DNA of 33,647 nt from a virus: positions 1-33,647 of IMG/VR virus record IMGVR_UViG_3300042522_001203; one strand, given 5' to 3'. The notes beneath the pieces are model-generated. The model searched no databases. It saw only the letters and a list, made by a program, of their open reading frames with translations, and had not been told where the DNA came from. Every line of letters starts with the position of its first letter. Position 1 is the stretch's first letter. This document shows positions 6,244 to 33,647 of the stretch, in pieces. The translations under genes and the position numbers were made by a program.

Positions 6244-6258
6244 ACAAGAAAAAATCCG

Positions 6259-8211
6259 TCACATGTAGTACGGTGCGAAGTCAGCCCAGTAGCCAAGGGA
6301 TTCCGGATCGATATTGACAAGTTCACGATGAACAAAACTTCGATTAAGACGATAGGCGGATGAGTAGAGTTTTACGAGATTTTCCACACTATCCGTATCA
6401 AGGTCGTCGCCACGTAGAACAATATTCTCAAAACGTGCCAGATCCATGCGAAGGGTATCATGCTGATACGGGATTTGTCTGGGTACGGATCGAATCTCAT
6501 CCAGCAGACGTTTAGTTACATAGATAATATCTCCGGGCGTGGTATACTCGTCGACATTGATCTTAGAGTTTTCGGAATCGGTAGACGATACGCCTGCGGA
6601 TAACCTGTCCCAGCCAACTTCATCCATTCCACCCTGATTAAACCGCTCAGCAATTTTTTTGGCGACTTTGTCTCGAGTCGTCTCATCCTTCAAGTCGCCA
6701 CTCTCGTCAAATTCGCTGAAGTCGAGGTTTTCGGCGGACAGGGGTGGAGGCGAAGACGACAACAGCTTTCCAATCACGCTTTCGCCAATTACCGGTCCGT
6801 TGGATTCACCGGCATTAGCGGTTTGGGGGTTACGACTATTTCTATGTTCGCCCATACCAGCGTCCGCACCCATCCCGCCCATCATTTCTTCCATCGAGAT
6901 TTTCTCAAGCGACGGAATCCTGAGTTTATCACGCACCCAGTCAAGATCGGTAACCTGGTAACCCACCGCTTGAAGCTGAGTAAGTATCTGAACCGTTTTG
7001 ATCGGATCTTCGCCACGCTGCTCGATATCGCTGAAATCGCGCGAGATTCTAGGTACCGACGAGCCCGGATAATTCAACTCCACGATCCACCGAATCAGTG
7101 TCGCGTTAATGGTTTCGTCGAGCTGATCAGAAAAACTCTTAGATTTTCGAATCCGTACCGAGTCGGCAATCTGGTCACGAGCGTAACTGCCAACCCCGGT
7201 ACCTTCTGCTCCTACCGTCGCTTCACCGTTAATTAGAAATGAGATCTGCTGGTCAATGTAGCTGATAAGGTTTTGGTATACGTCCGCCCTGGAGTCTGAT
7301 GTCAAATAGTCAATCGACATCTCGTCTGGTACGACAATCGCCGTCTCCTGACCTAGTCGTTGCAACGCGGTAAACAATGACTTTACCTCCTCTTCAGGGG
7401 TACCGAGGCTAAACTTACCTACCGCAGTCGGAGTAGTATGCTTGTCAGCGTATTGTAGCCAGAATGATAATAGCGTGCGGCGGAATTCTACCAGACTGTA
7501 AAGTTGTCGGCCTAGGCCAGTGCCATATGGGTCCGCAAGGTTATTGTACGCCCAGTGGCGATGAATAACCATTGAGCGGAGAGGGATAGGCATCCCTTCG
7601 ACCGGAGATTGAATTGTAATGATTCGGGGGCTGATTGAGCCATCTTCATTTAGGATGAACTGAAACCGCCTCGGATCGCGAATCTTGATCTCGCTGGGGA
7701 CAACGTAGCTTCCCTGTCTGATCCAGCAAATCTCACCCACACTCATGCCGAGAATCAACGATTCCGCCATGCCCTTAACGAATGCGTTAAACCCTGTATT
7801 CGAGCTGACTAGCATGTCCCGACCCCGACTCTGCCGAGTGTTCGTACCGAGGTGATAAAGAGTCTGACGGACAAATTCCGCCACTTCTTCGTCTTTATCC
7901 GAATCTGATGTGGGATAAACGTGCCATTCGCGCTGAATAATCTCTCCGACTAACTTTTCCCACGCCGAAATTACCGCGCTGTCGTTGAACAGTCGGGTAT
8001 ATTGTTCGATGGCACGGGGGCCGCCACCACCCTCCTCGATAAGAATGTCGTCACGGCGAGGAAGGATAGCACCGGTAAGGACAGTTGGGAGCCCGCCCCA
8101 TGTGTACGGATCACCTTTGTATCCACCCAGTGCGCCCTGGTTAACGCCGAGCGAATATAGTCGGTCGTTATAACCGGTTTTAACAACCCTTTTCGTCTCG
8201 GCGGACATCAA
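6259..8211 (-). CDS. portal protein, Mu gp29 / DUF935 type
   Basis: A 650-residue protein. The first 430 residues have the hallmarks of Mu gp29-like portals: 'IIQREWHVYP', 'IKIRDPRRFQF', 'YNNLADPYGTGLGRQLY', 'FWLQYADKHTTPTAVGKF', a 'VPDEMSIDYL' segment and 'ETINATLIRWIVELNYP'. The portal forms the dodecameric ring at the capsid vertex through which DNA is packaged and ejected. The C-terminal 200 residues are acidic and helix-rich, without a recognised domain; extra C-terminal domains are common in this family. The ATG at 8211 has an alternative ATG one codon later. A GTTGAAAGC motif 14-29 bases upstream lies within the end of the preceding gene. Confidence 0.88.
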   Translation of the reverse strand: MMSAETKRVVKTGYNDRLYSLGVNQGALGGYKGDPYTWGGLPTVLTGAILPRRDDILIEEGGGGPRAIEQYTRLFNDSAVISAWEKLVGEIIQREWHVYPTSDSDKDEEVAEFVRQTLYHLGTNTRQSRGRDMLVSSNTGFNAFVKGMAESLILGMSVGEICWIRQGSYVVPSEIKIRDPRRFQFILNEDGSISPRIITIQSPVEGMPIPLRSMVIHRHWAYNNLADPYGTGLGRQLYSLVEFRRTLLSFWLQYADKHTTPTAVGKFSLGTPEEEVKSLFTALQRLGQETAIVVPDEMSIDYLTSDSRADVYQNLISYIDQQISFLINGEATVGAEGTGVGSYARDQIADSVRIRKSKSFSDQLDETINATLIRWIVELNYPGSSVPRISRDFSDIEQRGEDPIKTVQILTQLQAVGYQVTDLDWVRDKLRIPSLEKISMEEMMGGMGADAGMGEHRNSRNPQTANAGESNGPVIGESVIGKLLSSSPPPLSAENLDFSEFDESGDLKDETTRDKVAKKIAERFNQGGMDEVGWDRLSAGVSSTDSENSKINVDEYTTPGDIIYVTKRLLDEIRSVPRQIPYQHDTLRMDLARFENIVLRGDDLDTDSVENLVKLYSSAYRLNRSFVHRELVNIDPESLGYWADFAPYYM

Positions 8212-8216
8212 ACTAA

Positions 8217-9671: not shown

Positions 9672-9703
9672 GACAGCAAATTGGTACAACCCTTTCTCAT
9701 ACC

Positions 9704-9737: not shown

Positions 9738-9759
9738 GAAGATTTTTGTATTGTAGCAC

Positions 9760-18826: not shown

Positions 18827-21649
18827 TTGGCAACTTCGATCACAGTGAACGCCGCAGCACTGAATCGACCCGGCGTGTTTGTCGCCCAGTCGGTTACGGG
18901 CGGCCTGCCACAGCCCATCGCCAGCCATGCTGTAGGCTATTTGTTCGGTACGACTCCGGCCGATGAATATTACGGCACCGGCAGCGAGGGTATTTATTCA
19001 GAATTTCTTCCATACACCCCGACTCAAGTAGCCTCAGTAGAGGACTACCTGCTAAAGGTTGGTGGTACGTTGCCCACTGGTAGTGTCGGCGCACTGACCA
19101 CCTACGATGCGGTAAAAGGGTTTTTCGATAACGTTGGTGTTAACGGAATTCTCTACTTTACCCGTGTAACCCCAACCCCTGAAACGGTAATTAATCTCAG
19201 CGCTAGCAGTGCTGGAGCCGGTTATAACGCTTTCGCGATTAAGGTTAACGGTCGGTATTTTGGTACTCCGATCAATGTTCTCGATCCGGATGGTGACGAG
19301 ATTCGGGTCATTACGACTACCGGTATCGATGCGATTGATAACGCACGCGACCTGTTTGTATATCTATCCGGGGCTAATTCTGACGGTTTCTCTGATTTCT
19401 ATAAAGTCGAGCAAACTGCGACCGAAGCGACTCAAGGTAAGTTCAGAGTATTTGCGCGTGACAACACCAATCTGCCCGAAATCGATCGGTTTGTTGCCTA
19501 TAGCTTCACCGATACTGGTTACGCTAGCCCGTTAAATTTAGATACCGAAGCCGTAGTTAAACTATACACCTCGGTAAAGGAGATTAACTTCCGCTGCAAT
19601 AGTAGGGAGATCGCAACTGGTCAGGGCATCCTGTATATCGAAGGTTCTTTGCTAAGCTTGTTTATCGCTGCGGCGAATACGGCGACCCCTGGTACCTACG
19701 ATCCAGCAACCGAGCAATCTGATATCCTAAAAGATTATCTCGCTAGCAAGAGTATTACTGTTGTCGACGATAAGATCGTTGCAGTAAGCAAAGACTTTAG
19801 CTCTGGCGTAGCTTCAGGCAATAAATGGACCGATGCCAGTGCAGCATACTGGCGCTACGACCTAGGAACTACTACGTTCGCGAAGCTAGTCTCTGGTTCT
19901 GACGCTATTGTTCCTACCGGCACAGTTTCCGTAAGTGGTGGCGTAGCTACCCGAACCGGCTACCTTCCTGACTCCGTCCAGGTATTTTATGTTTCTGTTG
20001 CTGGTGAAAACCGTGCGATTATTGTTAACGGTGCGACACCAGACGAACTTGCCACTGCGCTTCGTGACGAACTTATTAGTATTCTGAACGAAAAAGAACT
20101 TGATCAGTACTACACCGTAGAAGCGGTAACAACCGGGTCTAACTACAGCGGTACAAACTACGCACCGAATAACGGCCATAAGGTTATTAACAACCTCGTA
20201 TCTTCCCACGGCGCGCCGTATATTCGTCCGGACCTAGAGGATATCGCACTTACCGGCACTGTCGCAATTAGCTCTGGTACAGTAACAGGCACAAACACCC
20301 TGTTTACTCAAGAACTTGGTGCGGGAGATGTGATCGTTGTTAACGGTACTCGGTTCACGGTAACTGCGGTTACCACTAATACCGCCGCTACTGTTACCCC
20401 CAATAACGTTACGGTGACTGCTGGTGCGACTGCGAGACTAGACAAATCTTACGCGAACGGTTTTGAATCTTTCGATTATGTTCTTAAGATTCGGATCACT
20501 GCGAAAAACGGTCTGGTAAGCCCAGTTCTTCCTGGTACAAATCGTCAGGGTCTTACCGACAGCAATGTTGTCAAGCTAACCTCAATTCAGGAGAATGTTG
20601 GCTATGAGACCTACAAACTCACCTCCGCTGCTAAAGCCCAAGATTTCGTTTACGCGATTGAAAAGGGTATGAGCGACGAGTATTACGCCCCTGGCTTCCT
20701 AATGGCACCAGAAGCGTATGCGACGCTCAAGTATAGCGCTGATTCCGATCTCGCCTCCCGCAGCGAAGCGATTGGTGAAAGACTTAAAGTGACTCAGACT
20801 CTTGTCGCTGCGGCTGAAGGCCGGTTTGGCGTCACTGAAGGTATCAGCAACACCCAGCACGTTGCCCTAATCGATTGTGGTGGTGATGTAGACAACCTGT
20901 CTCAAGCACAAGACGAACTCGACACCATCAAACGAACTGTTGGCTCGTTCTACGGTCACGCAGCGTTCTACGCTCCGTACCTCAAAAACCTCAACGACCG
21001 CTTTGTTCCCGCTAGCCCGTTTGTGGCCGGTGCGGCCTGTAGCCGATTCATTAATGAGGGCTTCCAGCAACCTCCAGCCGGCGCAAGGTATCCGCTACGT
21101 GGTGTGGTCGATCTGAAGTTCAAGATCACCGCACAACAGCAAGAGGTAACTTACGCTCTCGGACTCAACCCGATCCGGTCTCTGCCTAACCGTGGAATCG
21201 TTGTATGGGGTGCACGTACCCTGTCCAGCAGCCCGCTATTCCGGTTTGTCAATACTCGCGTCATTCTTAACGTCCTTATCGACGTCATGAACCGCAGCTT
21301 CGACGATATTCTCTTCGAGTCTATCGATTCTGCCGGTACTGTGTATAGTCGAGTTAAGTCAGTTGCGAACCAGGTGCTGAACCAGTTCTTCCTGCAAGGT
21401 GCGTTGTTTGGTGGTAGACCAGAACAGGCATATCTGGTTATCTGTGGTAACAGTAACAATAGCGCTGCACTACTCGAGCAGGGTACTGTCCGTATGGATG
21501 CGTATGTGGCTACTTCACCCACCCTTGAGCGTCTTGCGATTACCATTGTCCGCACTCCGGTCGGTCAGGTATCCCTGCTGAGCGATAGCTTTAGCAGAAA
21601 TGAAGAACGGTTTACCGCTCTTCTCGATGCTACTAATCTTAACGTTTGA
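18827..21649 (+). CDS. contractile tail sheath protein, unusually large
   Basis: A 940-residue protein starting at TTG 18827, with a good AGGAGAG ribosome site at 18813-18819. The N-terminus 'NRPGVFVAQSV' and the C-terminal block 'LNPIRSLPNRGIVVWGARTL', 'FRFVNTRVILNVLIDVMNRS', 'QGALFGGRPEQAYLVICGNS' and 'VRTPVGQ' are the conserved sheath core that polymerises around the tube and contracts. Most sheaths have about 400-660 residues. Here the extra length comes from inserted beta domains in the middle. One of them (about 476-538) matches a segment of the capsid cement protein. The protein makes this phage a myovirus. Confidence 0.95.
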   Translation: MATSITVNAAALNRPGVFVAQSVTGGLPQPIASHAVGYLFGTTPADEYYGTGSEGIYSEFLPYTPTQVASVEDYLLKVGGTLPTGSVGALTTYDAVKGFFDNVGVNGILYFTRVTPTPETVINLSASSAGAGYNAFAIKVNGRYFGTPINVLDPDGDEIRVITTTGIDAIDNARDLFVYLSGANSDGFSDFYKVEQTATEATQGKFRVFARDNTNLPEIDRFVAYSFTDTGYASPLNLDTEAVVKLYTSVKEINFRCNSREIATGQGILYIEGSLLSLFIAAANTATPGTYDPATEQSDILKDYLASKSITVVDDKIVAVSKDFSSGVASGNKWTDASAAYWRYDLGTTTFAKLVSGSDAIVPTGTVSVSGGVATRTGYLPDSVQVFYVSVAGENRAIIVNGATPDELATALRDELISILNEKELDQYYTVEAVTTGSNYSGTNYAPNNGHKVINNLVSSHGAPYIRPDLEDIALTGTVAISSGTVTGTNTLFTQELGAGDVIVVNGTRFTVTAVTTNTAATVTPNNVTVTAGATARLDKSYANGFESFDYVLKIRITAKNGLVSPVLPGTNRQGLTDSNVVKLTSIQENVGYETYKLTSAAKAQDFVYAIEKGMSDEYYAPGFLMAPEAYATLKYSADSDLASRSEAIGERLKVTQTLVAAAEGRFGVTEGISNTQHVALIDCGGDVDNLSQAQDELDTIKRTVGSFYGHAAFYAPYLKNLNDRFVPASPFVAGAACSRFINEGFQQPPAGARYPLRGVVDLKFKITAQQQEVTYALGLNPIRSLPNRGIVVWGARTLSSSPLFRFVNTRVILNVLIDVMNRSFDDILFESIDSAGTVYSRVKSVANQVLNQFFLQGALFGGRPEQAYLVICGNSNNSAALLEQGTVRMDAYVATSPTLERLAITIVRTPVGQVSLLSDSFSRNEERFTALLDATNLNV

Positions 21650-21650
21650 C

Positions 21651-21662
21651 GTTGAAAGATAG
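21651..21662 (+). promoter_or_regulatory. late-promoter-like motif, copy 11 (atypical)
   Basis: GTTGAAAG directly followed by ATAG, only 2 bases before the protease/scaffold ATG at 21665. The short distance does not suit a promoter for this start, so it may serve as a ribosome site or be a decayed copy. Confidence 0.35.
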
Positions 21663-21664
21663 AT

Positions 21665-23284
21665 ATGGCAAGAAGACTTCGTGCAGAAATTAAGCCCGGA
21701 CCTACCACGGATCCGGTTCTTAACGCCGATACTCCCCTGACCGAACAACAACCGAAACGTACGGTTTATATCGAACTGTTTCGTTCCGGCCCTCAGATTA
21801 GTTCTAGTGGCCAAAAAATGGTGTTTGCGGATGAGGACTTGGATCAAGTGGTTAGTGGATACAATCCTACTACCCACGAGGCCCCTCTTATCATCGGTCA
21901 TGATCAGGATGACGGTACACCTGCTCTTGGGTGGGTGCGCGAAGTTTGGCGCAAAGGTAAATCGCTCTGGGGTAAGGTTGAGCTTACCCCAAGAGCTGAG
22001 CGCCTTATCCGTGACGGCGTATTTAAGAAGGTAAGTAGCTCGTTTTATTTGCCTGATGCCGATACGAATCCGACCCCCGGCCAGTTAGCCCTGCGCCATC
22101 TTGGCCTGGTGTCGATCCCTGCGGTAAAAGGTCTCACCGCCTTTGCCGAAAATCACCCCGAAGGCTCGATCACAATTACTCCAAGGGAGTCTTCTATTTC
22201 ATTTGAGGAAACTTTACCCACTATGGCTAAAAGAAAAACTGAAGCCCCCGTTCAAGAGACAAAAATTGTCGATCATGCTGACGGCCGGGGCATGACCATT
22301 AATGTAAATATTAATGGTATGAAAGCAACAGACGAAGAAGGTGAAATGCTCCAGGAAACTGGTGCTGCCGCTCCATACGACATGGAGTACGCAGACGATA
22401 TGGACATGGATCCGAACCGTGATATGGCCACCCCAAGACCCATGGTCGATGAAGGCATGGGAGGTATGAGTGCAACCACGTCAATGGTTGAAGGTCCGGA
22501 CGGTAAGGAAATGGGCGATGAGGATGGCGGCGACGCTGCACCCGTTGGCCCTGATGGTGCTGGTCCGGATGGTACAGAAGGTGAAACCGGTGGTGGTGGC
22601 GATGATATGGGCTCTGATGCCGATGTCGAAGACGTTTCTGGTTCTGATGACGAGAAAGTCGCCGCCGACCTTGCTTCTCAATATACCGAAGAGCAGCTCA
22701 TCATGGCGTTGTATCAACTAGCCCAAGGATCCCAAGAAATGGGCGAGCGTGGGATGATGGGTTATTCGGAGTCCGAGGATTTTGAAAATGTAGTCCAAAC
22801 TGAAACTGAAGCCTCTTTTGCAGAAGCACAATCTCCCGACCCACTTTCCATCAAAGTAGCCGAGCTCGAGGAGGAGCTTGCCGCTCAACGTCGCCTCATG
22901 CGACAGAAAGAGATCACTGACTTCTGTGAAAAACTTTATGGTGACGGTAAGCTTACCGAGAAAGTCGCGCCGATCTCCGACCTGGTACGGTTCATGGAAA
23001 CGCTTAATGCGAAAAATTCTGTAAACTTTAGCGAGACCGGTAAAGCATCACAGTTCGACTTCATGAAGAACGTGTTGACTAATCTCCCCGCGATGGTAAG
23101 TTTTAGCGAAGTTGCGACTCAGGTGTCTGCACCGAAGAAGACTAAGTCTCCGCGTCCTAACGCTGACGGCTATGTTTATGATGAGCGGAATGCTGAAATT
23201 CACGCTAAAGCGATTGAATACTCAGAACAGAATGGTACCGACTATATGTCGGCTCTCAAGCTCGTTCTAAACGACGAGCTCTGA
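21665..23284 (+). CDS. prohead protease with fused scaffold, Mu gpI-like
   Basis: A 539-residue protein. Residues 1-170 show the Mu gpI protease pattern: 'APLIIGHDQDDGTPALGWV' with the G-H pair, 'SLWGKVELTPRAERLI', 'FKKVSSSFYLP' and 'GLVSIPAVKGL'. Residues 190-360 are very acidic and rich in G, D, M and E, as expected of a removable scaffold. Residues 380-539 are helical. It would cleave scaffold and capsid during head maturation. A possible internal start at ATG 22223 (residue 187) could release the scaffold part alone. The motif copy at 21651 is unusually close to the ATG. Confidence 0.85.
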   Translation: MARRLRAEIKPGPTTDPVLNADTPLTEQQPKRTVYIELFRSGPQISSSGQKMVFADEDLDQVVSGYNPTTHEAPLIIGHDQDDGTPALGWVREVWRKGKSLWGKVELTPRAERLIRDGVFKKVSSSFYLPDADTNPTPGQLALRHLGLVSIPAVKGLTAFAENHPEGSITITPRESSISFEETLPTMAKRKTEAPVQETKIVDHADGRGMTINVNINGMKATDEEGEMLQETGAAAPYDMEYADDMDMDPNRDMATPRPMVDEGMGGMSATTSMVEGPDGKEMGDEDGGDAAPVGPDGAGPDGTEGETGGGGDDMGSDADVEDVSGSDDEKVAADLASQYTEEQLIMALYQLAQGSQEMGERGMMGYSESEDFENVVQTETEASFAEAQSPDPLSIKVAELEEELAAQRRLMRQKEITDFCEKLYGDGKLTEKVAPISDLVRFMETLNAKNSVNFSETGKASQFDFMKNVLTNLPAMVSFSEVATQVSAPKKTKSPRPNADGYVYDERNAEIHAKAIEYSEQNGTDYMSALKLVLNDEL

Positions 23285-23458
23285 TTGGTTGTGGGGTAAC
23301 ACGGGCGGGACTTGTCCCGCGTCGCATCCCAACCAGCCTTGTAACAACGGGCAGCAAGCTGCCCGGCGAATAGGTCGATAACCTGGTTATCAAGCTCTCC
23401 TATTCGTCCGGTTACGTTAAGGAGATATCACAGTGTACGGAGATACGTCTCCGTGTAC
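23285..23458 (+). other. run of four hairpins between scaffold and capsid-cement genes
   Basis: The stretch holds four strong inverted repeats on the plus strand. (1) 23286-23335, a stem TTGGTTGTGGG with CCCAACCA, with a perfect inner hairpin GCGGGAC-TT-GTCCCGC at 23305-23320. (2) 23348-23365, perfect CGGGCAGC-AA-GCTGCCCG. (3) 23367-23406, CGAATAGG...CCTATTCG enclosing GATAACC-T-GGTTATC. (4) 23433-23458, an 11-bp stem with a TACG loop that contains the GTG start codon. None is followed by a T-run, so these look more like a structured RNA leader than terminators. Confidence 0.6.
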
Positions 23459-24200: not shown

Positions 24201-24215
24201 GGAGAGTAACTAATT

Positions 24216-25205
24216 ATGATGAATCTTGATCAAGTTCGGGTAATTGACCCGATTCTAACTCAACTAGCTCAAGGATATAAAAACGCAGACGGCGTCGCAA
24301 CTTTCTTTGCACCTAGTGTGTCAATGAATCTTCGCGCTGGCCGTACTCTGGTTTTTGGTAAAGAGGCTTTTGCTGCTCAATCCTTCCTGCGTGCACCTGG
24401 TACTAATATCCAGAAGATCCAAAACGAGTTCGGCACTCGTAGCTTTGCGCTTCGTCAAGAAGCCATTAGCTGGCAGATTGCTGAAGAAGTAGCTGCCGAA
24501 GCCAAAAATGGTGCCGCTGCTATTGATCTTCGTGCTTATGCTGCAAAAGACGCCGCAAACCGTCTCATGCAGAGCTGGGAAATCCAGGTAAGTGAAAAAG
24601 TTCTAGACGTAACCCAATACGAGACTGGCAACGTTCTCGACCTGGCTGCTTATAACAGCGGTGCTGATCAGTTTAACAGCCCGACTTCTGACGTTGAGGT
24701 TCTACTTGACGACATGAGAGAGCAAGTACGTTCTCAAGTCGGTGTCTATCCGAACAAGATGGTACTGTCCCCCGATGCCTTTAACGCCCTGAAGCGTAAC
24801 AAGCGTATTCGTGACTTCATGCAGCGTGGTGTTCTGGTGAACGAGAAAACCCTCGCCGAGATCTTTGGTCTTGACGAAATTCGTGTCGCTCGTCGCCTAA
24901 AACTCAATCAGGCAACTGGTGGTCTGGAGAATATCTACAACAACGTAGCTCTTCTCTTCTATCACCCCAGCGGTGCTACTGATGGTTTCACTCCCGCTCT
25001 CGATGCGAACTATGGTACTCCCGCTTTTGCGTACACTTATACGCTGGCTGGTTATCCTATTTCAACCCCTGAGCGCTTCAACATGGACCGTCGTGTTTTC
25101 GAAGGCGACATCCTTGTAGAACGCTCTTTTGAACTCGTAGGCATGGGTGAGACTGGCAGAGTTGGTGCTGGTGCAGTATTCCTAAATCCTGTTGCTGCGG
25201 CTTGA
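24216..25205 (+). CDS. major capsid protein
   Basis: A 329-residue protein from ATG 24216, with a GAGGAGAG ribosome site. The layout is of a HK97-fold capsid of the Mu T-like type: 'FAPSVSMNLRAGRTLVFG' early, helix 'AISWQIAEEVAAEAKNG', 'VSEKVLDVTQYETGNV', 'MREQVRSQVGVYPNKMVLSP', 'RIRDFMQRGVLVNEKTLAEI' and 'VALLFYHPSG'. No N-terminal scaffold domain is present, in keeping with the separate scaffold upstream. The gene ends about 30 bases before a strong terminator, so the capsid transcript probably ends there. Confidence 0.9.
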   Translation: MMNLDQVRVIDPILTQLAQGYKNADGVATFFAPSVSMNLRAGRTLVFGKEAFAAQSFLRAPGTNIQKIQNEFGTRSFALRQEAISWQIAEEVAAEAKNGAAAIDLRAYAAKDAANRLMQSWEIQVSEKVLDVTQYETGNVLDLAAYNSGADQFNSPTSDVEVLLDDMREQVRSQVGVYPNKMVLSPDAFNALKRNKRIRDFMQRGVLVNEKTLAEIFGLDEIRVARRLKLNQATGGLENIYNNVALLFYHPSGATDGFTPALDANYGTPAFAYTYTLAGYPISTPERFNMDRRVFEGDILVERSFELVGMGETGRVGAGAVFLNPVAAA

Positions 25206-25234
25206 TTTAGTGTCAAGCTAGTACAGATCTTCCG

Positions 25235-25258
25235 GCCCGCCCCAAAGGCGGGCTTTTT
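25235..25258 (+). terminator. rho-independent terminator after major capsid gene
   Basis: A perfect 7-bp G/C stem (GCCCGCC, loop CCAAA, GGCGGGC) is followed by TTTTT on the plus strand. It ends the head operon about 30 bases after the capsid stop. It is the clearest terminator in the window. Confidence 0.92.
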
Positions 25259-25287
25259 ATTGTCAACTCTAAGATTGTGTCTTTAGC

Positions 25288-25303
25288 GTTGAAAGCTCTA
25301 TAG
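25288..25303 (+). promoter_or_regulatory. late-promoter-like motif, copy 12
   Basis: GTTGAAAGC-TCT-ATAG, right after the capsid terminator and 11 bases before the DUF1320-type gene (ATG 25315). Confidence 0.6.
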
Positions 25304-25314
25304 AAGTAGTAAGC

Positions 25315-26106
25315 ATGGCCCCATACACCCCGCCTCCCGACGCATACGGTGTCGCTAACAACTGTACACCGGCCACGGCAGATTATTTCATTGAAGTCTT
25401 TGGCTTTAACGAAGCACTGGAGCTGTCCCGCCTCGAAGATCCGACCGCAAATACTATAAATTACCAGCGTATTAACGTTGCTCTTAACGACGCGGCTCAA
25501 CTTATAAATAACTACATCGAAACTGCCCCGCCGCAGGGAAAACTACTCATCGCAGGGTCGTACCGCAGGACTCAGGCCATACTCGCTCGCTGGTACCTCG
25601 ACACCCTCCGCCCTCGGCAACAGGTCGTAGACGCCGCAGAAGCCGCCCTCAAGCAGCTCGATCTATGGGCTGCTAAAGCCTCCCCGTCGTCCGGTATCAA
25701 GTGGCAGGAGGCCTACAGATACTGGGGTAGCGCATGTGCGATGACGATGTCGAACACCCAACGCGACCGCGCATTTACCGATGCGTCGCTGGCAAGGTGG
25801 GAAATGCGGTGGGGTACCAATAACCGCTGGAATCCGTACAAGAGAAAAGGTGCGCCGGTTATTGATAACGTAACGCAGCGAGAGCCGAGCGGGTCATTGG
25901 ATCGGCAGAATGTTACGTTGATTGGCGATAGCACGTTGGAAATGAATCAATTGTTCGATAGCTTGGAGACTACCCGCGACGTTGCTAGTTTCGCTGACAC
26001 CCAAAACGCGGCCACACCGGTTGAAGGCGATGTGCTTGTTGTTGAAAACACTGATGGCGACATCACAACTTACGATGGCGGCCTGCAGGAGGCCGACACA
26101 TTCTGA
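25315..26106 (+). CDS. neck / head-tail connector protein, DUF1320 (Mu gp36) type
   Basis: A 263-residue protein. The helical core 'RINVALNDAAQLINNYIE', 'RRTQAILARWYLDTLRPRQQ' and 'VDAAEAALKQLDLWA' fits the DUF1320 family, which acts at the portal-to-tail junction. A G/D-rich C-terminal extension follows ('VEGDVLVVENTDGDITTYDG'), of the type seen at the ends of small virion proteins. It is the first gene of a new unit with a motif at 25288-25303, just after the capsid terminator. Confidence 0.75.
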   Translation: MAPYTPPPDAYGVANNCTPATADYFIEVFGFNEALELSRLEDPTANTINYQRINVALNDAAQLINNYIETAPPQGKLLIAGSYRRTQAILARWYLDTLRPRQQVVDAAEAALKQLDLWAAKASPSSGIKWQEAYRYWGSACAMTMSNTQRDRAFTDASLARWEMRWGTNNRWNPYKRKGAPVIDNVTQREPSGSLDRQNVTLIGDSTLEMNQLFDSLETTRDVASFADTQNAATPVEGDVLVVENTDGDITTYDGGLQEADTF

Positions 26107-26159
26107 TGCTGATGCATCGTTACAAATAGTTTCTACCAACCGTTTAACACTTTACCGTT

Positions 26160-26519
26160 ATGTGGACATCTGACGAAAACCAGGTTTATGGCTACGATCC
26201 TTTAATTCCAGGGATGCCTGGGGGATCAAGCATGATCACAATCATTCCAAATGCCGGGAGTACGAGTTGTGGCTACAATACCAGCGGGTTGCAAGGGTTA
26301 ACGCATTCCAGTTTCGGTGTGTTTCCAGACAGTACACCTTACAAACAGACCGCTAGTGAGTTGCGGCAGTACATTATCAACCTTGAGGCTACTAGGAAAT
26401 TACGCGACCTTGCCGATGTTAATTTTCAACGCTCTCCGCAGCCCGGGGATGTCCTCGCTTATAACTATACTACCGGACTCTGGGAGCTACTGGATTTTGT
26501 TTCCGGTGGCGAATTCTGA
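26160..26519 (+). CDS. small virion protein
   Basis: A 119-residue protein from ATG 26160. A later ATG at 26232 ('MITIIPNAG') is also possible. The end 'LRDLADVNFQRSPQPGDVLA' followed by 'YNYTTGLWELLDF' is a well-known phage structural motif: L-x-D-V-x-F...P-x-x-G-x-x-L-x-Y-N...W. It probably decorates the tail or neck. It ends convergently, overlapping the deaminase gene by 33 bases. Confidence 0.6.
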   Translation: MWTSDENQVYGYDPLIPGMPGGSSMITIIPNAGSTSCGYNTSGLQGLTHSSFGVFPDSTPYKQTASELRQYIINLEATRKLRDLADVNFQRSPQPGDVLAYNYTTGLWELLDFVSGGEF

Positions 26520-26885
26520 CCACGTACCGCTATCGGTTGAGTAGTAAACGTGCTTGATGCCGGATTCGGAAATGGCGAGTTGGCATACGGGGCACGGACG
26601 AGCGAGGCACAAGTCCCCCTGTCGATTTACTCTACCGACAACTAAAGTATCGCAAGTAGCCGCTTTAGGGTTCAATAGCGCCCGTAACTCGGCGTGTAAC
26701 GACACACGATACGGTTGACCAACACGATCCGCAAGCCTAGATTGCATCGGGTGAGTCTTACCAAACACATTCGTGGAACGTATAACAATTCGTCCTTTAC
26801 GAAGCAAGACACAGGCTACGCGCCACCGGGAGTCAGTAGCTAGTGCCATCGACACGATAGTTTTTTCAACTTTGTCGCTTACCAC
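26487..26885 (-). CDS. cytidine/dCMP deaminase-like protein
   Basis: A 132-residue protein from GTG 26885. The zinc site of the cytidine deaminase fold is complete: H64-A65-E66 ('SLHAELRALL') and P97-C98-P-V-C101 ('RPCPVCQLAI'), with E66 as proton shuttle. The size and fold fit a nucleotide or nucleoside deaminase, which could supply dUMP/dTMP precursors or edit. The substrate cannot be told from sequence. It is the last gene of a four-gene minus-strand cassette and overlaps the stop of the 55-residue gene by a few bases. Confidence 0.8.
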   Translation of the reverse strand: MVSDKVEKTIVSMALATDSRWRVACVLLRKGRIVIRSTNVFGKTHPMQSRLADRVGQPYRVSLHAELRALLNPKAATCDTLVVGRVNRQGDLCLARPCPVCQLAISESGIKHVYYSTDSGTWSEFATGNKIQ

Positions 26886-27046
26886 CTGACGAACAAGTTC
26901 CGAACCATTTGCTTGAGGCGACTGAGTTTGCGTTGATGCTTTTCAGCTTTTCTGATAACTTTTTGCGCTTCGCTACGTGTCGTAGCTGTTTCCGCTTGCA
27001 TCATGCGTTGGATGAGACGGTGTGTGTGGTGTTTGACGTCCTTCAT
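26879..27046 (-). CDS. small basic protein
   Basis: A 55-residue protein from ATG 27046 to TAA 26879, found by reading the minus strand. Its start overlaps the stop of the upstream 73-residue gene as ATGA, and its stop overlaps the GTG of the deaminase. It is highly basic and helical ('KAEKHQRKLSRLKQMVRNL'), so it may bind nucleic acid. Function unknown; the coupling on both sides argues that it is real. Confidence 0.65.
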   Translation of the reverse strand: MKDVKHHTHRLIQRMMQAETATTRSEAQKVIRKAEKHQRKLSRLKQMVRNLFVRW

Positions 27047-27264
27047 TCAATGATCCCCGCGAACCTCATGCAAATCTCGCCCCACTCCAACACGTCACGA
27101 TCGCGAAAATAGGTGGAAATTGGCACTTCTCTGTCAAGAACGCGTTCACCTGTGTCGACATGTTCCATGCGTAAGTAGCCGTAGGTGTCTGCCTGCGCAA
27201 GCACATAACAATGATAGATGCCATCTAGGTTATTCTCCCAGACGATTTGAGGTTCGTGAGCCAT
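27043..27264 (-). CDS. unknown small protein
   Basis: A 73-residue protein with aromatic and acidic residues ('WENNLDGIYHCYVLAQADTY', 'EVPISTYFRDRDVLEWGE'), probably a small beta/helix fold. The stop overlaps the next start (ATGA), and its start overlaps the end of the membrane-protein gene by 35 bases. No recognised family. Confidence 0.6.
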   Translation of the reverse strand: MAHEPQIVWENNLDGIYHCYVLAQADTYGYLRMEHVDTGERVLDREVPISTYFRDRDVLEWGEICMRFAGIIE

Positions 27265-27412
27265 GGCAAGAGGTTTCGTTGTTTCCGGATCTGCATCCTA
27301 ACAGTGCTTTCAACAGAAACGCAGCCATTAGGGTACCGAGGGCGAACGCGGCCATGAAATTTAAGGTTAAAAGGATGGTGGTAAGGACATAGGCTAGTAC
27401 GCTAGCGTCCAT
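27230..27412 (-). CDS. small membrane protein
   Basis: A 60-residue protein. Residues 5-38 are strongly hydrophobic ('AYVLTTILLTLNFMAAFALG', then 'TLMAAFLLKALLG'), enough for one long or two short membrane segments. A polar C-terminal tail with two cysteines follows. It is the first gene of the minus-strand cassette and starts back-to-back with the plus-strand motif at 27417. Possible roles include a holin or a superinfection factor, with no direct evidence. Confidence 0.55.
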   Translation of the reverse strand: MDASVLAYVLTTILLTLNFMAAFALGTLMAAFLLKALLGCRSGNNETSCHGSRTSNRLGE

Positions 27413-27416
27413 AAGC

Positions 27417-27432
27417 GTTGAAAGCTATAAAG
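27417..27432 (+). promoter_or_regulatory. late-promoter-like motif, copy 13
   Basis: GTTGAAAGC-TAT-AAAG (second box differs), upstream of the tail terminator-like gene (ATG 27458). Confidence 0.5.
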
Positions 27433-27457
27433 GGTGTTCATACCCTGACACGATAGC

Positions 27458-28405
27458 ATGCTGCTCGAGATCGAAAACCAGCTCTACCGCAAGGTCCACG
27501 AGACTCTGGGCCAGAGCGCGGTCGTGCTTCGACTAGCCGAGGAGCTCGATCAGTCCGGTCGTGTGGCCGAGCAGGCAATGATCATTGTGTCGTTTACTGG
27601 CGGAAATACTGATAACCCGAACAAAGGAGCGTACATTCCAACAGTTCGGAAAAGGACTCTGACGTATACATTGACGCTGGTTCAAAAGCAAACTCAGCGC
27701 GAAGGACATTCGTTCTGTTTGCCAATTCTTGATCTTCTAGCCGATGCGGTAACCGGATGGGTTCCTGAAATCCCGGGCCTTGAATTCCAAACCGGATTTG
27801 AGTTGGGACCGGAGAAATTCGTCCAAGTCACCCCAGAATCCTCCCAATTCATCTACGAACAGACCTATACAATCGAGGTTCTGATGGCAGATGGTCGGTT
27901 TTACTCTCAGCCCTGCGCCGCATTCGATCCGGTCAAAGTGGGAGATTTTCTGCCGATACGCAAGTGTCTGGTTACACCGGGAGAAGAAAGCCGGCAAACC
28001 GGTCTTGCGGTGTGGCGTCGGACACTGGGACCGAATACAGTTCAACGGTATGTAGTCGAGGACATCCGTTGTGGCCGGACGATCGGGGACAACTTGACCG
28101 TTACATGCACAAATCCTGGTGATGGGACTGCGACCTATACGTTCACCCCTATTACCGCTATTCGACCAAACGGTACGGTGAATACGGGGCTTCAGGTGAC
28201 CGGTACCCTTACCGATGTGTGGAAGTGTACGAGGGAGGGGATTAAAGATGGTAGAGACATACCACCCTGGTTTAAAATCAATCTTGATATGGGTCTATGG
28301 AGAAATGCAGCGGATACTGTACCGAATACATTGCCAGAAACCAGTTCGTATCAACCTCTTGCATTAGAGCCCAATCGTAAGTACAATGAGAAAAAGGTAA
28401 CCTAG
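27458..28405 (+). CDS. tail terminator-like protein, gp37-type N-terminal domain
   Basis: A 315-residue protein. The first 145 residues ('MLLEIENQLYRKVHETLG', 'RTLTYTLTLVQKQTQREG', 'LPILDLLADAVTGW', 'FIYEQTYTIEVLM') have the plan of Mu gp37-like proteins that cap the tail tube at its head end. The remaining 170 residues are beta-rich, cysteine-containing and not recognised; a C-terminal addition of this size is unusual for a terminator. It follows the DUF1320 gene in usual neck order, though the minus-strand cassette lies between. Confidence 0.6.
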   Translation: MLLEIENQLYRKVHETLGQSAVVLRLAEELDQSGRVAEQAMIIVSFTGGNTDNPNKGAYIPTVRKRTLTYTLTLVQKQTQREGHSFCLPILDLLADAVTGWVPEIPGLEFQTGFELGPEKFVQVTPESSQFIYEQTYTIEVLMADGRFYSQPCAAFDPVKVGDFLPIRKCLVTPGEESRQTGLAVWRRTLGPNTVQRYVVEDIRCGRTIGDNLTVTCTNPGDGTATYTFTPITAIRPNGTVNTGLQVTGTLTDVWKCTREGIKDGRDIPPWFKINLDMGLWRNAADTVPNTLPETSSYQPLALEPNRKYNEKKVT

Positions 28406-28442
28406 CCTTTATTCTCGTTTCATCCCTCGCCACCTCCTCCCC

Positions 28443-28856
28443 ATGGAAAAAGAATTTCTTGCCGTATTGACCTCTCAATACAATTTAGCCGGTGCGGCTA
28501 AACTCGCTCATTGGAACTCAGTCGGAACCGACTTCTATCATTTCCATCTGCTTTTCGAACGTGTATATAACATGATCGATGAGAAAATTGATGTTGTAGC
28601 AGAACAAGCTCGTGGCAAAAGTGTCGAAATTACTGCTTCGATCTTTACGGAAGTGCCTGAAATTGATTGGGATACGTGTCAGGAACTAGCTGACGAAATT
28701 CTTAAGCTTGTAGATAAGCTTCAAGAGTCGTTAGACGAACTCCACAAGAAAGCTGATGACAAGAGTGAGTACGGCATTTTAAATGTTGTCGAGGATATTA
28801 TGTCTGACGTAAATTCTGCACGTTATTTACTTGGTTCTGTTAATAGTAAATTTTGA
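28443..28856 (+). CDS. Dps-like ferritin
   Basis: A 137-residue protein with the Dps ferroxidase residues at the right spacing: H23 (in 'KLAHWN'), H35 (12 residues later in 'FHLLFE'), E39, D50 and E54 ('IDVVAEQAR'). Dps forms a dodecamer that oxidises and stores iron, protecting DNA from oxidative damage. There is no basic N-terminal DNA-binding tail. It may counter oxidative stress from host photosynthesis or defence. There is no GTTGAAAGC motif and no ribosome site; instead the sequence just upstream is CACCTCCTCC, complementary to a Shine-Dalgarno sequence. Confidence 0.85.
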   Translation: MEKEFLAVLTSQYNLAGAAKLAHWNSVGTDFYHFHLLFERVYNMIDEKIDVVAEQARGKSVEITASIFTEVPEIDWDTCQELADEILKLVDKLQESLDELHKKADDKSEYGILNVVEDIMSDVNSARYLLGSVNSKF

Positions 28857-28863
28857 CAGAAGA

Positions 28864-28883
28864 GGGGAGGCCTAAGCCTCCCC
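28864..28883. terminator. strong hairpin between convergent genes
   Basis: A perfect 8-bp stem GGGGAGGC-CTAA-GCCTCCCC lies between the convergent dps and RlpA-like genes. There is no T-run on the plus strand and only a T-rich stretch (TCTTCTGTC) on the minus strand, so it may attenuate in both directions rather than fully terminate. A second inverted repeat, ATCAGCT-T-AGCTGAT at 28888-28902, carries the stop of the RlpA-like gene. Confidence 0.5.
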
Positions 28884-28893
28884 GACCATCAGC

Positions 28894-29256
28894 TTAGCTG
28901 ATTCTCGTATAGCAGACGCTGGCTACGCCGGACGAGGGTGACGCGATACGGGAAAAAGCGCCGTGAGACAAATCAAGAATTCGATTGCCATGGTACGGTC
29001 CTCGGTCGGTGACAGTAACAACGATTGAGCGACCATTGCCTGGGTTGGTAACCCTAATCCGACTACCTAGGGGCAGCGAACGATGGGCGGTAATGTCCGC
29101 TCCGGGGTCCATAGGACGACCGTTAGCCATTGTTTGCCAGGCATAGCCATCCCCCACGCCATAGTGGCTTGTGAGCCCGCAGCGGGACGCTGCGTAAGAC
29201 GGAGTGGAAACAGCCATGCCAATGGCCAGTGTTGCTAGTGCGAGAAGTTTACGCAT
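28894..29256 (-). CDS. exported RlpA-like (double-psi beta-barrel) protein
   Basis: A 120-residue protein from ATG 29256. An in-frame ATG at 29328 is rejected because it would place 24 residues before the signal peptide. Residues 1-22 form a classical signal peptide (MRK, hydrophobic core, 'TPSYA' cleavage site). The mature part has the RlpA pattern: 'TSHYG', 'TMANGRPMD', 'TAHRSLPLGSRIRV' and 'VTVTDRGPYHGNRILDLS'. RlpA-like domains act on or bind cell-wall glycan in the periplasm. A phage copy could help lysis or loosen the wall. A conserved D-R-G-P is present. The hairpin at 29408-29426 terminates the operon upstream of it. Confidence 0.8.
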   Translation of the reverse strand: MRKLLALATLAIGMAVSTPSYAASRCGLTSHYGVGDGYAWQTMANGRPMDPGADITAHRSLPLGSRIRVTNPGNGRSIVVTVTDRGPYHGNRILDLSHGAFSRIASPSSGVASVCYTRIS

Positions 29257-29402
29257 GATGTTGTTGCAAAGGACAACGAAAACGACACGGTGGCGAGGCG
29301 GAGACAGCAAGTAGCTTCCTGTTTCCATTACCCCCGCTCGGTCGAAATCGCGACACCGGACAAAACGGACGTATCCGCAGAGGTCGGTGGTTTAGCGGAT
29401 GT

Positions 29403-29426
29403 GAAAAGAGGGGGACAAGCCCCCTC
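29403..29426 (-). terminator. rho-independent terminator on minus strand
   Basis: On the minus strand GAGGGGG-CTTGT-CCCCCTC is followed by TTTTC. An outer pair GCGGAT (29395-29400) and ATCCGC (29427-29432) extends the structure. It lies just after the 90-residue gene and would end the polymerase operon. Confidence 0.75.
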
Positions 29427-29461
29427 ATCCGCTTAAGACCAGTTTAACACGGAAACTCGGC

Positions 29462-29734
29462 TTACTCAGCCCGCTCCGCGATGCATTCGTACATCCCTCG
29501 TACAGCGTTGTCAAGAAGAGAAATAGACTCCCGTTCGTTCATTTCTCCGTCGGTAGTTAAGACATTGTAAAGAAACTCCATAGGCTTGAGACGTTCATCG
29601 TCGCTGTCGAGTCCGACAGCAGCGATAAATCCCTCATAGTAATCAATGTCATGCTCGTCACAGGTATCAAAAATCTGCTGAAGGATTTCGCCCTCCCGCA
29701 GACAATCCTGGACTTCGGTTGCTGTAAATTTCAT
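29462..29734 (-). CDS. unknown acidic protein, coupled to polymerase
   Basis: A 90-residue acidic, helical protein ('REGEILQQIFDTCDEHDIDY', 'TTDGEMNERESISLLDNA'). The EF-hand-like look of 'DSDDERL' was considered and not supported. The start overlaps the polymerase stop as ATGA, so it is translationally coupled and may be a polymerase accessory factor. No family recognised. Confidence 0.6.
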   Translation of the reverse strand: MKFTATEVQDCLREGEILQQIFDTCDEHDIDYYEGFIAAVGLDSDDERLKPMEFLYNVLTTDGEMNERESISLLDNAVRGMYECIAERAE

Positions 29735-32472
29735 GATCGGGGGGCATAGTTGCGTAAGGAGTCTAGCACGGGTACTAGAGTTGTGATCGTATGAGCGCGA
29801 CCATCTGGTTCCTGGATTGGTTGAGAAACTGTTGTAGTTCCTGCTGTTGCTGCCTTTCTAAAGATTTTATCAACTTCAATACTACTGAACCAGGCATTAG
29901 CATGAGGCATTTCGCAAATACCGTAATTAAACCGGAGCCATGACCATGACCATAAATGGGCAACTTGATACAACGCGCTGACCAAATCAGCGTCTTTTTC
30001 CTCGCACATAAACAGCACTGAGTCGTGAACAGACATGCAGAAACGAGCGCGGACATTGTACAATCGGGTTAAATGCTCCATGGCCGTTAGAAATCCATGT
30101 AACATAGCGCTACCGGTGCTCTGGATTACCCAGTTGTTTCTCATGGTAAAATAGTCGCTGCCTACAACCTCCGGGCGAAAAGCTGTTGACATTTTAGTGC
30201 CACTTAATGGGTTGCGTGGTACTTGACTGTTAGCGATACGGGACATTTCATTGTATGCATACGAATCACTGCCGCCAACTAAATTAGAAGAGTCCTGACT
30301 TGCTTTTCTTCCTTTCTTTGTCGCGATAAGTTTCTTGCCCATCTTTTCTGCGTCCTTGGTGCTTATCGATTTATTGCCTTTTCTGATAGTGGCGGCTAGA
30401 GTTTTTACGCCAGAACCGTACAACATCCCGTAATTACAGCCCTTAGCAATTGCTCGAGAAATTCCTATAGTTTTAGCTGTCATGCTGTGCATATCAGTAC
30501 CATCCTCCTTTGAACCTGCAAGAACGCTATGACCGAATTGAGTGCTGCCAGCCAGTCTATACTCGCAATCTGCAAATATCGATGCGACAACACTTTCTTG
30601 TCCATCGTAATCTGATGATACGAACGTGTATGGTGACTTTACCTGAACCCGTGTTTTTACTTCCGTACCGATTTTGTCCGGTTTAGGGTCAGGTACTGTT
30701 AGCCAGAGGTGTTCACCAGCTCGATTAGTAGCAGTGTTGTGTGGAATTGTCTGAGGTATAACAATGGTTAAATCGGAATCCAGCGACTTAGTCGGTAACT
30801 GCTCTTTAACTCTGCTTCTCACTGATGTCCAGTAAGAAACTTTAACAGCAAGACGGATAAGCTCTTGTGCTTGAGGTAGATCGCTGGAAAGGGTACCTGA
30901 CTCAAAATCGTCAAGATAATCTTTGCTCAGCACACCACCGACATTAATACCCTCTCCGTTGGGGTGTGGCACCCTTACCATTTCTCCTTTGTCCCGATCC
31001 ATATACATCCACCCAGTATCTTTTTCATACACCATGGGCTCACCGTTCCACTTTAAACGAAGAAGAATATGGCTAAGACGACTTTTTGTCGTAATAGGTT
31101 CGAGAACGATCTTCTTTAATTCTTTGTCGTTTCTTGCATTTTTTCTATACCACATCGGGATTCCATACCAGCAACTCTTAGGCTTTCCATCCTTTTTTAA
31201 GGCGTAATTAGCCTCCCAGTCAAGCTGTGACAACCAAGGATCTGATTCAATATCAATCTCGTCAGATTTCCAGTCTTCCAGTAGTTGTTCAGCAATTTCG
31301 CTCAACAATTCATCTTGTCTTGTAATCGACTCTTCCCAAACTTTTTCGCACTCATTAACCCAATCGTACCAGTTATCTACTACTGGTAAAATTGAGGATG
31401 TTTGTGAAAAATGACCGTATAGTGTAGTAAGAGATGGATTAGATTGTAAATATTTAAGAGAGACTACTGAGTACATGTCATAAGTTACTTTAACATCACG
31501 GAGTGCGTAAGCAGTTAGTTCGTCTCTGTCCGGAACAAAATCATGCATCGACTCTGCAACAACAAACAAGTTACGAGTTTTCTTTGTTTCCTTTTCTAGC
31601 GGAACCATAGGCTGGCAGTGGAAATTATATACATCGACAAGATTGTTCATCGATCCTTTTGTCGTCCAAGACGGTGGTGCTTGGTACTTAAACGACTTGT
31701 CGTCTGACTGAGTAAACCAGAATCGTTGTTCTGAGGCAAGACCGCTGACATTTATGTGTGCGGACATTGTATCAAACCACAGATTTCCAAACGGCTCGGT
31801 TTGATTGAAGGGGTCGTGACGAAGATAATATGCCTCATGAGTACGTTGGCGATCGAATCCAACGTTATGAGCGATAAACAGTGAATTTGTAGTTCCTAGG
31901 GGTACGAGTTGAGGAGTATACGGTATCTCTGGATTTACAAACGACTCATGCATCCATATCCAGTACGAGTCTGAAGATACAGCAGTAGCTAGAATTGGGT
32001 GACCGAAATCTGAACCTCTAACAAAAGTTTCACAGTCAAATACGGCGATAGGGACGTTAGCCATGCCCTTATCGCCCATAGGTGTTATCTGCCATTGTCC
32101 ATCTTTTTTCCACTGGTACCGTACCCAGCCCATCTCGTACACGATGTGCTCGGGACTGGGAGGTTCTGGGACATCACAGTCCGCGAACGACCTCATCAGT
32201 TTTACTTTATCGGACAGAATATTGTTACTAATATTATCAAAATGTTCGGCGATGTCTTTGCCTTCTAGCTGTGGTAAATAAAACTCTGGTAGTTTCTCAA
32301 ATATCTCTGGATTTTTAATTGGAAATTCAACACCAAACCTTTCCATCTCATCAATAATAAAATTGAGACGGGACAATTCCGGTTTGTATGCTTCTACCGC
32401 ATCATCGCCAAATGCAGCCCGTGTCATTGACGGGGATAGCACTGAGTATCCGAGTGGGCTGAGATGGGTCAT
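29731..32472 (-). CDS. DNA polymerase gamma-like family A polymerase with 3'-5' exonuclease
   Basis: A 913-residue replicative polymerase. Exonuclease motifs: ExoI D146-x-E148 ('AVFDCETF'), ExoII 'AHNVGFDRQR' with D207, ExoIII 'YALRDVKVTYD' with D326. Polymerase motifs: A 'SSDYDGQE' with D621; B 'SRAIAKGCNYGMLYGSG' with R673, K677, Y681 and Y685; C 'SVHDSV' with D817. The blocks 'FDTMSAHINVSGLASEQR', 'PDKIGTEVKTRVQV', 'GTDMHSMTAKTIGISR', 'NWVIQSTGSAMLH' and 'NAWFSSIEVDKIFRK' follow mitochondrial Pol gamma from end to end, not Pol I. The spacer region is shorter than in human Pol gamma. Motif C has S in place of the usual E after the catalytic D. Confidence 0.93.
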   Translation of the reverse strand: MTHLSPLGYSVLSPSMTRAAFGDDAVEAYKPELSRLNFIIDEMERFGVEFPIKNPEIFEKLPEFYLPQLEGKDIAEHFDNISNNILSDKVKLMRSFADCDVPEPPSPEHIVYEMGWVRYQWKKDGQWQITPMGDKGMANVPIAVFDCETFVRGSDFGHPILATAVSSDSYWIWMHESFVNPEIPYTPQLVPLGTTNSLFIAHNVGFDRQRTHEAYYLRHDPFNQTEPFGNLWFDTMSAHINVSGLASEQRFWFTQSDDKSFKYQAPPSWTTKGSMNNLVDVYNFHCQPMVPLEKETKKTRNLFVVAESMHDFVPDRDELTAYALRDVKVTYDMYSVVSLKYLQSNPSLTTLYGHFSQTSSILPVVDNWYDWVNECEKVWEESITRQDELLSEIAEQLLEDWKSDEIDIESDPWLSQLDWEANYALKKDGKPKSCWYGIPMWYRKNARNDKELKKIVLEPITTKSRLSHILLRLKWNGEPMVYEKDTGWMYMDRDKGEMVRVPHPNGEGINVGGVLSKDYLDDFESGTLSSDLPQAQELIRLAVKVSYWTSVRSRVKEQLPTKSLDSDLTIVIPQTIPHNTATNRAGEHLWLTVPDPKPDKIGTEVKTRVQVKSPYTFVSSDYDGQESVVASIFADCEYRLAGSTQFGHSVLAGSKEDGTDMHSMTAKTIGISRAIAKGCNYGMLYGSGVKTLAATIRKGNKSISTKDAEKMGKKLIATKKGRKASQDSSNLVGGSDSYAYNEMSRIANSQVPRNPLSGTKMSTAFRPEVVGSDYFTMRNNWVIQSTGSAMLHGFLTAMEHLTRLYNVRARFCMSVHDSVLFMCEEKDADLVSALYQVAHLWSWSWLRFNYGICEMPHANAWFSSIEVDKIFRKAATAGTTTVSQPIQEPDGRAHTITTLVPVLDSLRNYAPRS

Positions 32473-32493
32473 GTGGAAGGGTGAGCTTACCGC

Positions 32494-33174
32494 TCAGTAG
32501 TATACCACAGATTCGTCTCTATCGGTGTAGTACACGCCAGTAGCTTCAAGACTTGTCGCATCAATGATGTTGACGTTCCGGTGCCGGTATGGTAGGCCGT
32601 AATGGCCAAAGAAGTAGGTGAATGACGGGTCGATGAGGTGCCTACTTTCAAGATCCGGATCTCTGAACCAAGCGTACCCGGGACCGTAGAGAACGGTATC
32701 ACGAGGAACGTTTTGACCGCTGTGGGGATAGTACGCATGTGCTAGGCGATACTTTCCGCAGAGCTCGATGTGAGTAGGTGCGTTAGACAGCATTGAGATA
32801 TACGCGATTCGCTCGTCGAGAGGTAATTCGCGCAAACATTCTAGTGTATATTTTAATTCTTTTTTCTTAATTTTCTCATCAGGCATTACTAAAGACCTGA
32901 GGACGTAGTTCTCATTATTTCCAAGAATTAACGTACCACGATCATCCGAAATTAACGCGTGAATGATGCGCAGAACTTTAATTGGCGAGCAGCGTTTATT
33001 ATGCCGAAAATATGGTTTTTGGTGAATGGTGTCACCGAGAAATACATAATGGTACTTGCCGGTAGGATCACGCTCAAGAATAGTCTGCAAAAGCTTGACC
33101 CTACCATGCAAATCACCTACAAATGCGTAGGGACGTTCCGTCACACGTCGAACATTTTCGCCTCCAGTGCCCAT
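32494..33174 (-). CDS. metallophosphoesterase-like protein (PPP-type)
   Basis: A 226-residue protein with the calcineurin-like order: G-D-L-H-G at 20-24, G-D-T-I-H at 47-51, G-N-N-E at 85-88 and 'FFGHYG' near residue 190. This matches phage protein phosphatases and related phosphoesterases. The family normally has GNHE; here the catalytic H of this motif is N. The second motif also lacks the usual D-R-G. Catalysis may be altered. The start may be ATG 33174, or a GTG at 33144 that would overlap the upstream stop as GTGA. Confidence 0.75.
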   Translation of the reverse strand: MGTGGENVRRVTERPYAFVGDLHGRVKLLQTILERDPTGKYHYVFLGDTIHQKPYFRHNKRCSPIKVLRIIHALISDDRGTLILGNNENYVLRSLVMPDEKIKKKELKYTLECLRELPLDERIAYISMLSNAPTHIELCGKYRLAHAYYPHSGQNVPRDTVLYGPGYAWFRDPDLESRHLIDPSFTYFFGHYGLPYRHRNVNIIDATSLEATGVYYTDRDESVVYY

Positions 33175-33395
33175 GGGTTCTCCCGGATGTAAAGTTTAAA
33201 CGCCCGAGACGGGCTGTGCTTTTGAAATAGTCTAGCAAGGATCATGGTGATCCGAAACCAATTCGACTCATCTAATTTAGCATGCATGACCTGGAGTCCA
33301 CCACGATTGGGCCAGAAAGATGCTGAATATCTTGAACCCACCACACAGCGTAATGACCGGGGAAATCGACTATTGTGTGAAGAACCCGGTGCCAT
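33141..33395 (-). CDS. unknown protein
   Basis: An 84-residue protein from ATG 33395, with a ribosome site (GAAGGAAA) next to the upstream stop. It begins with a basic, serine-rich region and ends in a helix ('WFRITMILARLFQKHSPSRA'). A later ATG at 33287 would give 48 residues. The end overlaps the metallophosphoesterase start. No recognised family. Confidence 0.5.
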   Translation of the reverse strand: MAPGSSHNSRFPRSLRCVVGSRYSASFWPNRGGLQVMHAKLDESNWFRITMILARLFQKHSPSRAFKLYIRENPWALEAKMFDV

Positions 33396-33401
33396 TTTCC
33401 T

Positions 33402-33647
33402 TCAAACCTTACGAATCTGTTCCGCATCGGAGGGTGGAGGGGGCATGATGTATTCGAATACTCGGATTTGGCTTAAGAAAAACGAACTGGCGATAATCGC
33501 GCCAAGCCATACCCATCGATTCTTTTTTAAGTCGTTAATATCTTCTTCTGCTCGATCAAGACGTCCGGACAATTCGTTTTCTGTCTTTTCTATCAGCTTT
33601 TCAATCGCGCTATTGGTTTCTGTTGCTCGATCAATGCGTTCTTCGTG
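33402..33647 (-). CDS. coiled-coil membrane protein, N-terminus cut by window edge
   Basis: Reading the minus strand from 33647 gives 81 codons to the TGA at 33402; the start lies outside. It has a charged heptad helix ('SAIEKLIEKTENELSGRLDR'), a single membrane segment ('WVWLGAIIASSFF') and a short proline-rich end ('MPPPPSDAEQ'). The coil-then-membrane plan is like small phage lysis or membrane proteins of the XhlA type. It was found by direct translation. Confidence 0.7.
   Translation of the reverse strand, partial: HEERIDRATETNSAIEKLIEKTENELSGRLDRAEEDINDLKKNRWVWLGAIIASSFFLSQIRVFEYIMPPPPSDAEQIRKV

Follow-up and report, generated by a model that had tools for sequence, protein, structure and literature searches.

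A Pol gamma-type DNA polymerase in a viral contig related to the cyanomyovirus S-TIM5

The DNA analysed here (the window) is an IMG/VR contig in its entirety, 33,647 bases long. On its minus strand, at 29731-32472, it encodes an intact Pol gamma-type DNA polymerase of family A. We consider it highly probable that the contig represents part of the genome of an uncultured phage related to cyanophage S-TIM5, and that the gene encodes the replicative family A polymerase of that phage, which is homologous to mitochondrial Pol gamma along the whole chain. This reading rests on the homology and fold of the protein, on catalytic residues that are intact, on purifying selection, and on gene order. As a single gene, the polymerase carries little weight, since it adds one more case to a phage polymerase family that is already published. 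The closeness of the mitochondrial enzyme to the branch of another phage, Microcystis phage Mic1, allows the origin of the mitochondrial replicase of animals and fungi to be tested by broader sampling of eukaryotes.

Identity and phylogenetic position of the polymerase

The polymerase ORF starts with ATG, contains no internal stops, and encodes 913 amino acids comprising a DEDDy 3'-5' exonuclease, a short spacer, and a polymerase domain. Among Pfam models, the protein matched PF18136 ("DNA mitochondrial polymerase exonuclease domain") far above the cut-off (6.7e-46) as well as PF00476 (6e-12), and its best PHROGs match was PHROG 22619, a DNA polymerase (1016 bits). When it was searched against the PDB, the 14 best matches were exclusively Pol gamma chains (E 7e-115 to 3e-81), with the first match outside Pol gamma being Pol I, at E 0.12. 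Comparison with relatives at 70-78% identity gave pN values of 0.15-0.21 against pS values of 0.84-0.93, and the gene is thus under strong purifying selection.

The preliminary description of this DNA had claimed that all exonuclease and polymerase motifs follow mitochondrial Pol gamma, which holds for the catalytic residues of both the exonuclease (D146/E148, D207, and Y322/D326) and the polymerase (D621, R673, K677, Y681, Y685, and D817), but not for the glutamate of motif C, which reads HDS (serine at residue 818) instead of the usual HDE. The HDS form was present in all 11 S-TIM5-type polymerases of our tree, the window included, and in one Herelleviridae outgroup polymerase. Given that occurrence, and the retention of the metal-binding aspartate of motif C in S-TIM5-type polymerases, we regard HDS as a variant and not as a loss of function, although its presence across the clade means that metal-site chemistry may differ slightly. 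Separately, one S-TIM5-type polymerase (L073) has phenylalanine in place of tyrosine at the site in motif B that corresponds to Y685 of the window.

Structure prediction, proposed earlier as a check, sided with Pol gamma. The AlphaFold2 model, built from an alignment of the window and IMG/VR viral contig rows only, had a mean pLDDT of 85.2 and a pTM of 0.85. Foldseek placed human, mouse, and yeast Pol gamma on top (TMq about 0.70-0.83), followed by T7 and Klenow polymerases (TMq 0.35-0.39). In VIA-align 2, all listed Pol gamma entries scored Z 26.2-37.9, nearly all of them over 800-850 residues, with an rmsd of 3.6 over 800 residues where Z reached 37.9; Pol I reached Z 14.8 at best.

For phylogeny, we clustered 162 full-length related ORFs from IMG/VR and reference records (some of them from overlapping copies of one contig) at 75%, and built an IQ-TREE tree of 39 rows from the resulting representatives together with the window, S-TIM5, S-CBWM1, A-HIS1/2, Mic1, yeast and mouse Pol gamma (the only eukaryotic Pol gamma sequences in the tree), E. 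coli Pol I, T7 gp5, and further family A polymerases from phages. All Pol gamma sequences, phage and mitochondrial, formed one clade (100/100) on a stem of 2.27, and within it the window polymerase fell inside the S-TIM5-type clade, again with 100/100 support. T7 gp5 fell in the outgroup, separated from Pol gamma by a 100/100 branch. The phylogeny suggested earlier as a decisive check therefore set the window polymerase beside mitochondrial Pol gamma and outside both Pol I and T7. That the gene encodes an ordinary polymerase of the Pol I or T7 kind, resembling Pol gamma only through general family A motifs, has a negligible probability in our judgement: the PF00476 domain and weak hits to models of Pol I would suit such a reading, but the exonuclease domain is of the mitochondrial type, Pol I appeared in the PDB search no better than E 0.12, structural similarity was Z at least 26 to Pol gamma against at most 15 to Pol I, and a long, fully supported stem lies between Pol gamma on one side and Pol I, T7, and a number of phage family A groups on the other. 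The Pol gamma assignment made from the letters of the DNA was in this way confirmed for an intact gene by domain match, PDB match, fold, and tree alike.

Interruptions of the gene were seen among relatives. In one S-TIM5-clade contig (L127, IMGVR_UViG_3300045051_001326, 5995-10535), the Pol gamma gene is in three coding pieces, one insert breaking it at motif A and a second at motif B, each with an ORF of about 235 aa inside; these inserts matched a group I intron model at E 1.7e-07 (8463-8684) and 0.0095 (9603-9809), both under the gathering score. The polymerase gene of Mic1 is also interrupted at this motif A site. Independently, some S-CBWM1-type polymerases and the A-HIS polymerases (L052, L053, L054, L205, L131, and L180) have, between motifs A and B, an insertion that is missing from the S-TIM5-type, Mic1, and mitochondrial enzymes.

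Gene content of the window and kinship with S-TIM5

Most ORFs in the window match S-TIM5 proteins and are colinear with them, inverted as a block that takes in tail-type ORFs, portal, sheath, protease, capsid, adaptor, polymerase, and phosphatase. On the minus strand lies a Mu-type portal protein (6259..8211; PF06074 Portal_Mu, 9e-72; 56% identical to the S-TIM5 portal), and on the plus strand follow a contractile tail sheath protein (18827..21649; phrog_17610, 3.6e-257; 49-61% identical to the S-TIM5 sheath), a Mu-like head maturation protease/scaffold (21665..23284; PF10123, 1e-11; phrog_976, 2e-69; 61-64%), the major capsid protein (24216..25205; phrog_1005, 2.9e-66; PF03864, 4.8e-05; 83%), and a head-tail adaptor (25315..26106; phrog_195, 1.3e-21; 57%). 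The contractile tail and Mu-type head recognised in the preliminary description are accordingly real, with the sheath, portal, and protease matches as the evidence. Directly upstream of the polymerase is a NinI-like, calcineurin-like phosphoesterase on the minus strand (32494..33174; PF00149, 1.7e-06; phrog_246), 43% identical to an S-TIM5 ORF that holds the neighbouring place there (35897-36526). A 90-aa ORF (29462..29734, minus strand) overlaps the polymerase stop by 4 bases and occurs only in closer relatives, with no match in S-TIM5. No tRNAs and no Rfam families were detected within the window.

Also lacking an S-TIM5 match are two ORFs between the capsid module and the polymerase, namely an RlpA-like, DPBB lytic transglycosylase-type ORF (28894..29328, minus strand; PF03330, 9.6e-21) and a small ORF (28443-28856) matching DNA-binding/starvation-regulator PHROGs.

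By gene order and homologous head and tail proteins, the window belongs with the S-TIM5-like, Aurunvirus-type cyanomyoviruses. Megablast of the polymerase-bearing part (20001-33647) against phage records gave no hit, which indicates that none of the sequenced phages there is a close relative. S-TIM5 itself (JQ245707, Aurunvirus) is a 172 kb record with Parasynechococcus WH 8102 as host, and kinship makes a cyanobacterial host plausible for the phage behind this metagenomic contig as well; S-TIM5 has psbA, but none was seen in the close relatives examined (G001, G005, G006, and G016), so that kinship is what points to this host.

The polymerase of S-TIM5 was reported as mitochondrial-like by Sabehi et al. 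2012 (as cited in PMC4928673 and PMC7156551), a 2016 review describes S-TIM5 as widespread and as carrying a mitochondrial-like DNA polymerase (PMC4928673), and the Pol gamma carriers listed in the Mic1 paper include the cyanomyophages S-TIM5 and S-CBWM1 (PMC7156551). The earlier suggestion that a contractile-tailed carrier could widen the known distribution of Pol gamma consequently falls away, since S-TIM5 is a contractile-tailed cyanomyovirus with a Mu-like head, the same polymerase, and the same gene arrangement. The window polymerase is a further example of the published Pol gamma of contractile-tailed, S-TIM5-like cyanophages. We considered whether the window could instead represent a new kind of phage, with contractile tail and Mu-type head, that took its Pol gamma from A-HIS-type siphophages or eukaryotes. 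The two modules are indeed real, but this is very improbable, because the cultured S-TIM5 has gene, modules, and gene order as in the window, the polymerase sits at the same place in both and so is not in a foreign position, and the S-TIM5-type clade is monophyletic (100/100) with a diversity that looks vertical. The S-TIM5-type clade is common in IMG/VR, and the 162 full-length ORFs indicate that cyanophage-like contigs of different virion types commonly carry a polymerase of the Pol gamma kind. With the A-HIS2 protein as the query, no relative was found among IMG/VR viral contigs.

Replication genes and the origin of mitochondrial Pol gamma

Most likely, the window polymerase is a proofreading replicase that duplicates the phage genome as a single chain, without an accessory subunit. 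Primers would be supplied by the phage's own DUF5906-type primase and extended at the polymerase site, where D621 and D817 are the predicted metal ligands and R673, K677, Y681, and Y685 the putative fingers helix residues; the DEDDy exonuclease (D146, E148, D207, and D326) would excise misincorporated nucleotides, and an SF1 helicase and a flap nuclease would be encoded elsewhere in such genomes. As the 33.6 kb contig carries no primase or helicase genes, this replisome is drawn from relatives: the S-TIM5 genome has genes for a DUF5906 primase, for an SF1-type helicase, and for a 5' nuclease of the flap type. Ten of 11 Pol-gamma phage records (S-TIM5, A-HIS1, S-CBWM1, and the viral contigs G001, G005, G006, G007, G008, G012, and G015) have the DUF5906-type primase, and its presence in phages of unrelated virion types suggests that Pol-gamma phages share a mobile replication module. 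No biochemistry of any phage Pol gamma was found in the literature.

About 175 residues of the mouse Pol gamma spacer have no counterpart in the window polymerase, judging by the PDB-search alignment coordinates, and this part presumably includes most of the accessory-binding region. Such a short spacer would fit an enzyme that, like yeast MIP1, works as a single chain. In a search covering the POLG2-like type only, the HGTP_anticodon domain was found in none of 16 phage records and in all 14 controls.

The preliminary description further held that the gene bears on a phage origin of the mitochondrial enzyme. This idea was already published, the S-TIM5 polymerase having been taken to support it (2016 review, PMC4928673), and the phage branch nearest to mitochondria is Mic1 and not the window. 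The nesting itself fared better: Mic1 was sister to yeast and mouse Pol gamma in the 39-row tree with outgroups (100/99), the grouping was retained in a tree without outgroups and in the exonuclease/spacer half and polymerase half each alone, and monophyly of the phage sequences was rejected (AU p = 0.022) in a test that was chosen after the tree was seen and that involves long branches. Under outgroup rooting, mitochondrial Pol gamma, as represented by two eukaryotic sequences, is therefore likely, in view of that post hoc test and those branches, to be nested inside phage diversity.

On this basis, opisthokont mitochondrial Pol gamma may derive from a Mic1-related cyanophage polymerase, nested in a radiation that includes the S-TIM5-type branch and acquired alone, a scenario for and against which we see an even balance. 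Its acquisition alone would follow from the phages having a DUF5906 primase and SF1 helicase instead of the T7-type RNA polymerase and the DnaB/Twinkle-type helicase of mitochondria: neither PF00940 nor DnaB_C was found in any of 16 Pol-gamma phage records, while the T7 positive control was detected for both. A transfer in the other direction, from eukaryotes to phages, appears unlikely. It draws on the sampling of yeast and mouse only and on the long branch between the outgroups and Pol gamma, which together leave the root insecure, whereas the position of both eukaryotic sequences within phage diversity, the persistence of the Mic1 grouping across both protein halves and the outgroup-free tree, and the AU result speak against it, as does the published description of Pol gamma as confined to animals and fungi, with different polymerases in other eukaryotes (PMC7050145). 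Two scans of cellular genome contigs found no Pol gamma, although they used short degenerate patterns, so that absence there is not proven.

Comparison with known polymerases and phages

The closest known counterparts are S-TIM5 and S-TIM54/61/66, whose polymerases share the HDS motif C and are 58-59% identical to that of the window over 99% of its length. S-TIM5 also has, in inverted orientation, the order of portal, structural genes, sheath, protease, capsid, polymerase, and phosphatase. The window differs from S-TIM5 in that its polymerase lies in a sister subclade and that it carries the 90-aa, RlpA-like, and regulator-like ORFs near the polymerase, and it shows no close DNA match. Mitochondrial POLG and yeast MIP1 have collinear exonuclease, spacer, and polymerase domains and match the predicted fold over 800-850 residues, with about 30% identity between mitochondrial POLG and the window polymerase and with HDS as the motif C of the latter; unlike mammalian POLG, the window enzyme has a short spacer without the accessory-subunit region, and no POLG2 was found in related phage records. 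The polymerases of Microcystis phage Mic1, Acaryochloris phages A-HIS1/2, and Synechococcus phage S-CBWM1 belong to the same Pol gamma family at 30-34% identity, and DUF5906-type primases occur in the genomes of a Mic1-like relative, A-HIS1, and S-CBWM1. Mic1 and A-HIS are siphoviruses, in contrast to the contractile-tailed phage of the window, and the Mic1 polymerase gene is interrupted and groups with mitochondria, whereas the window gene is intact and groups within the S-TIM5-type clade.
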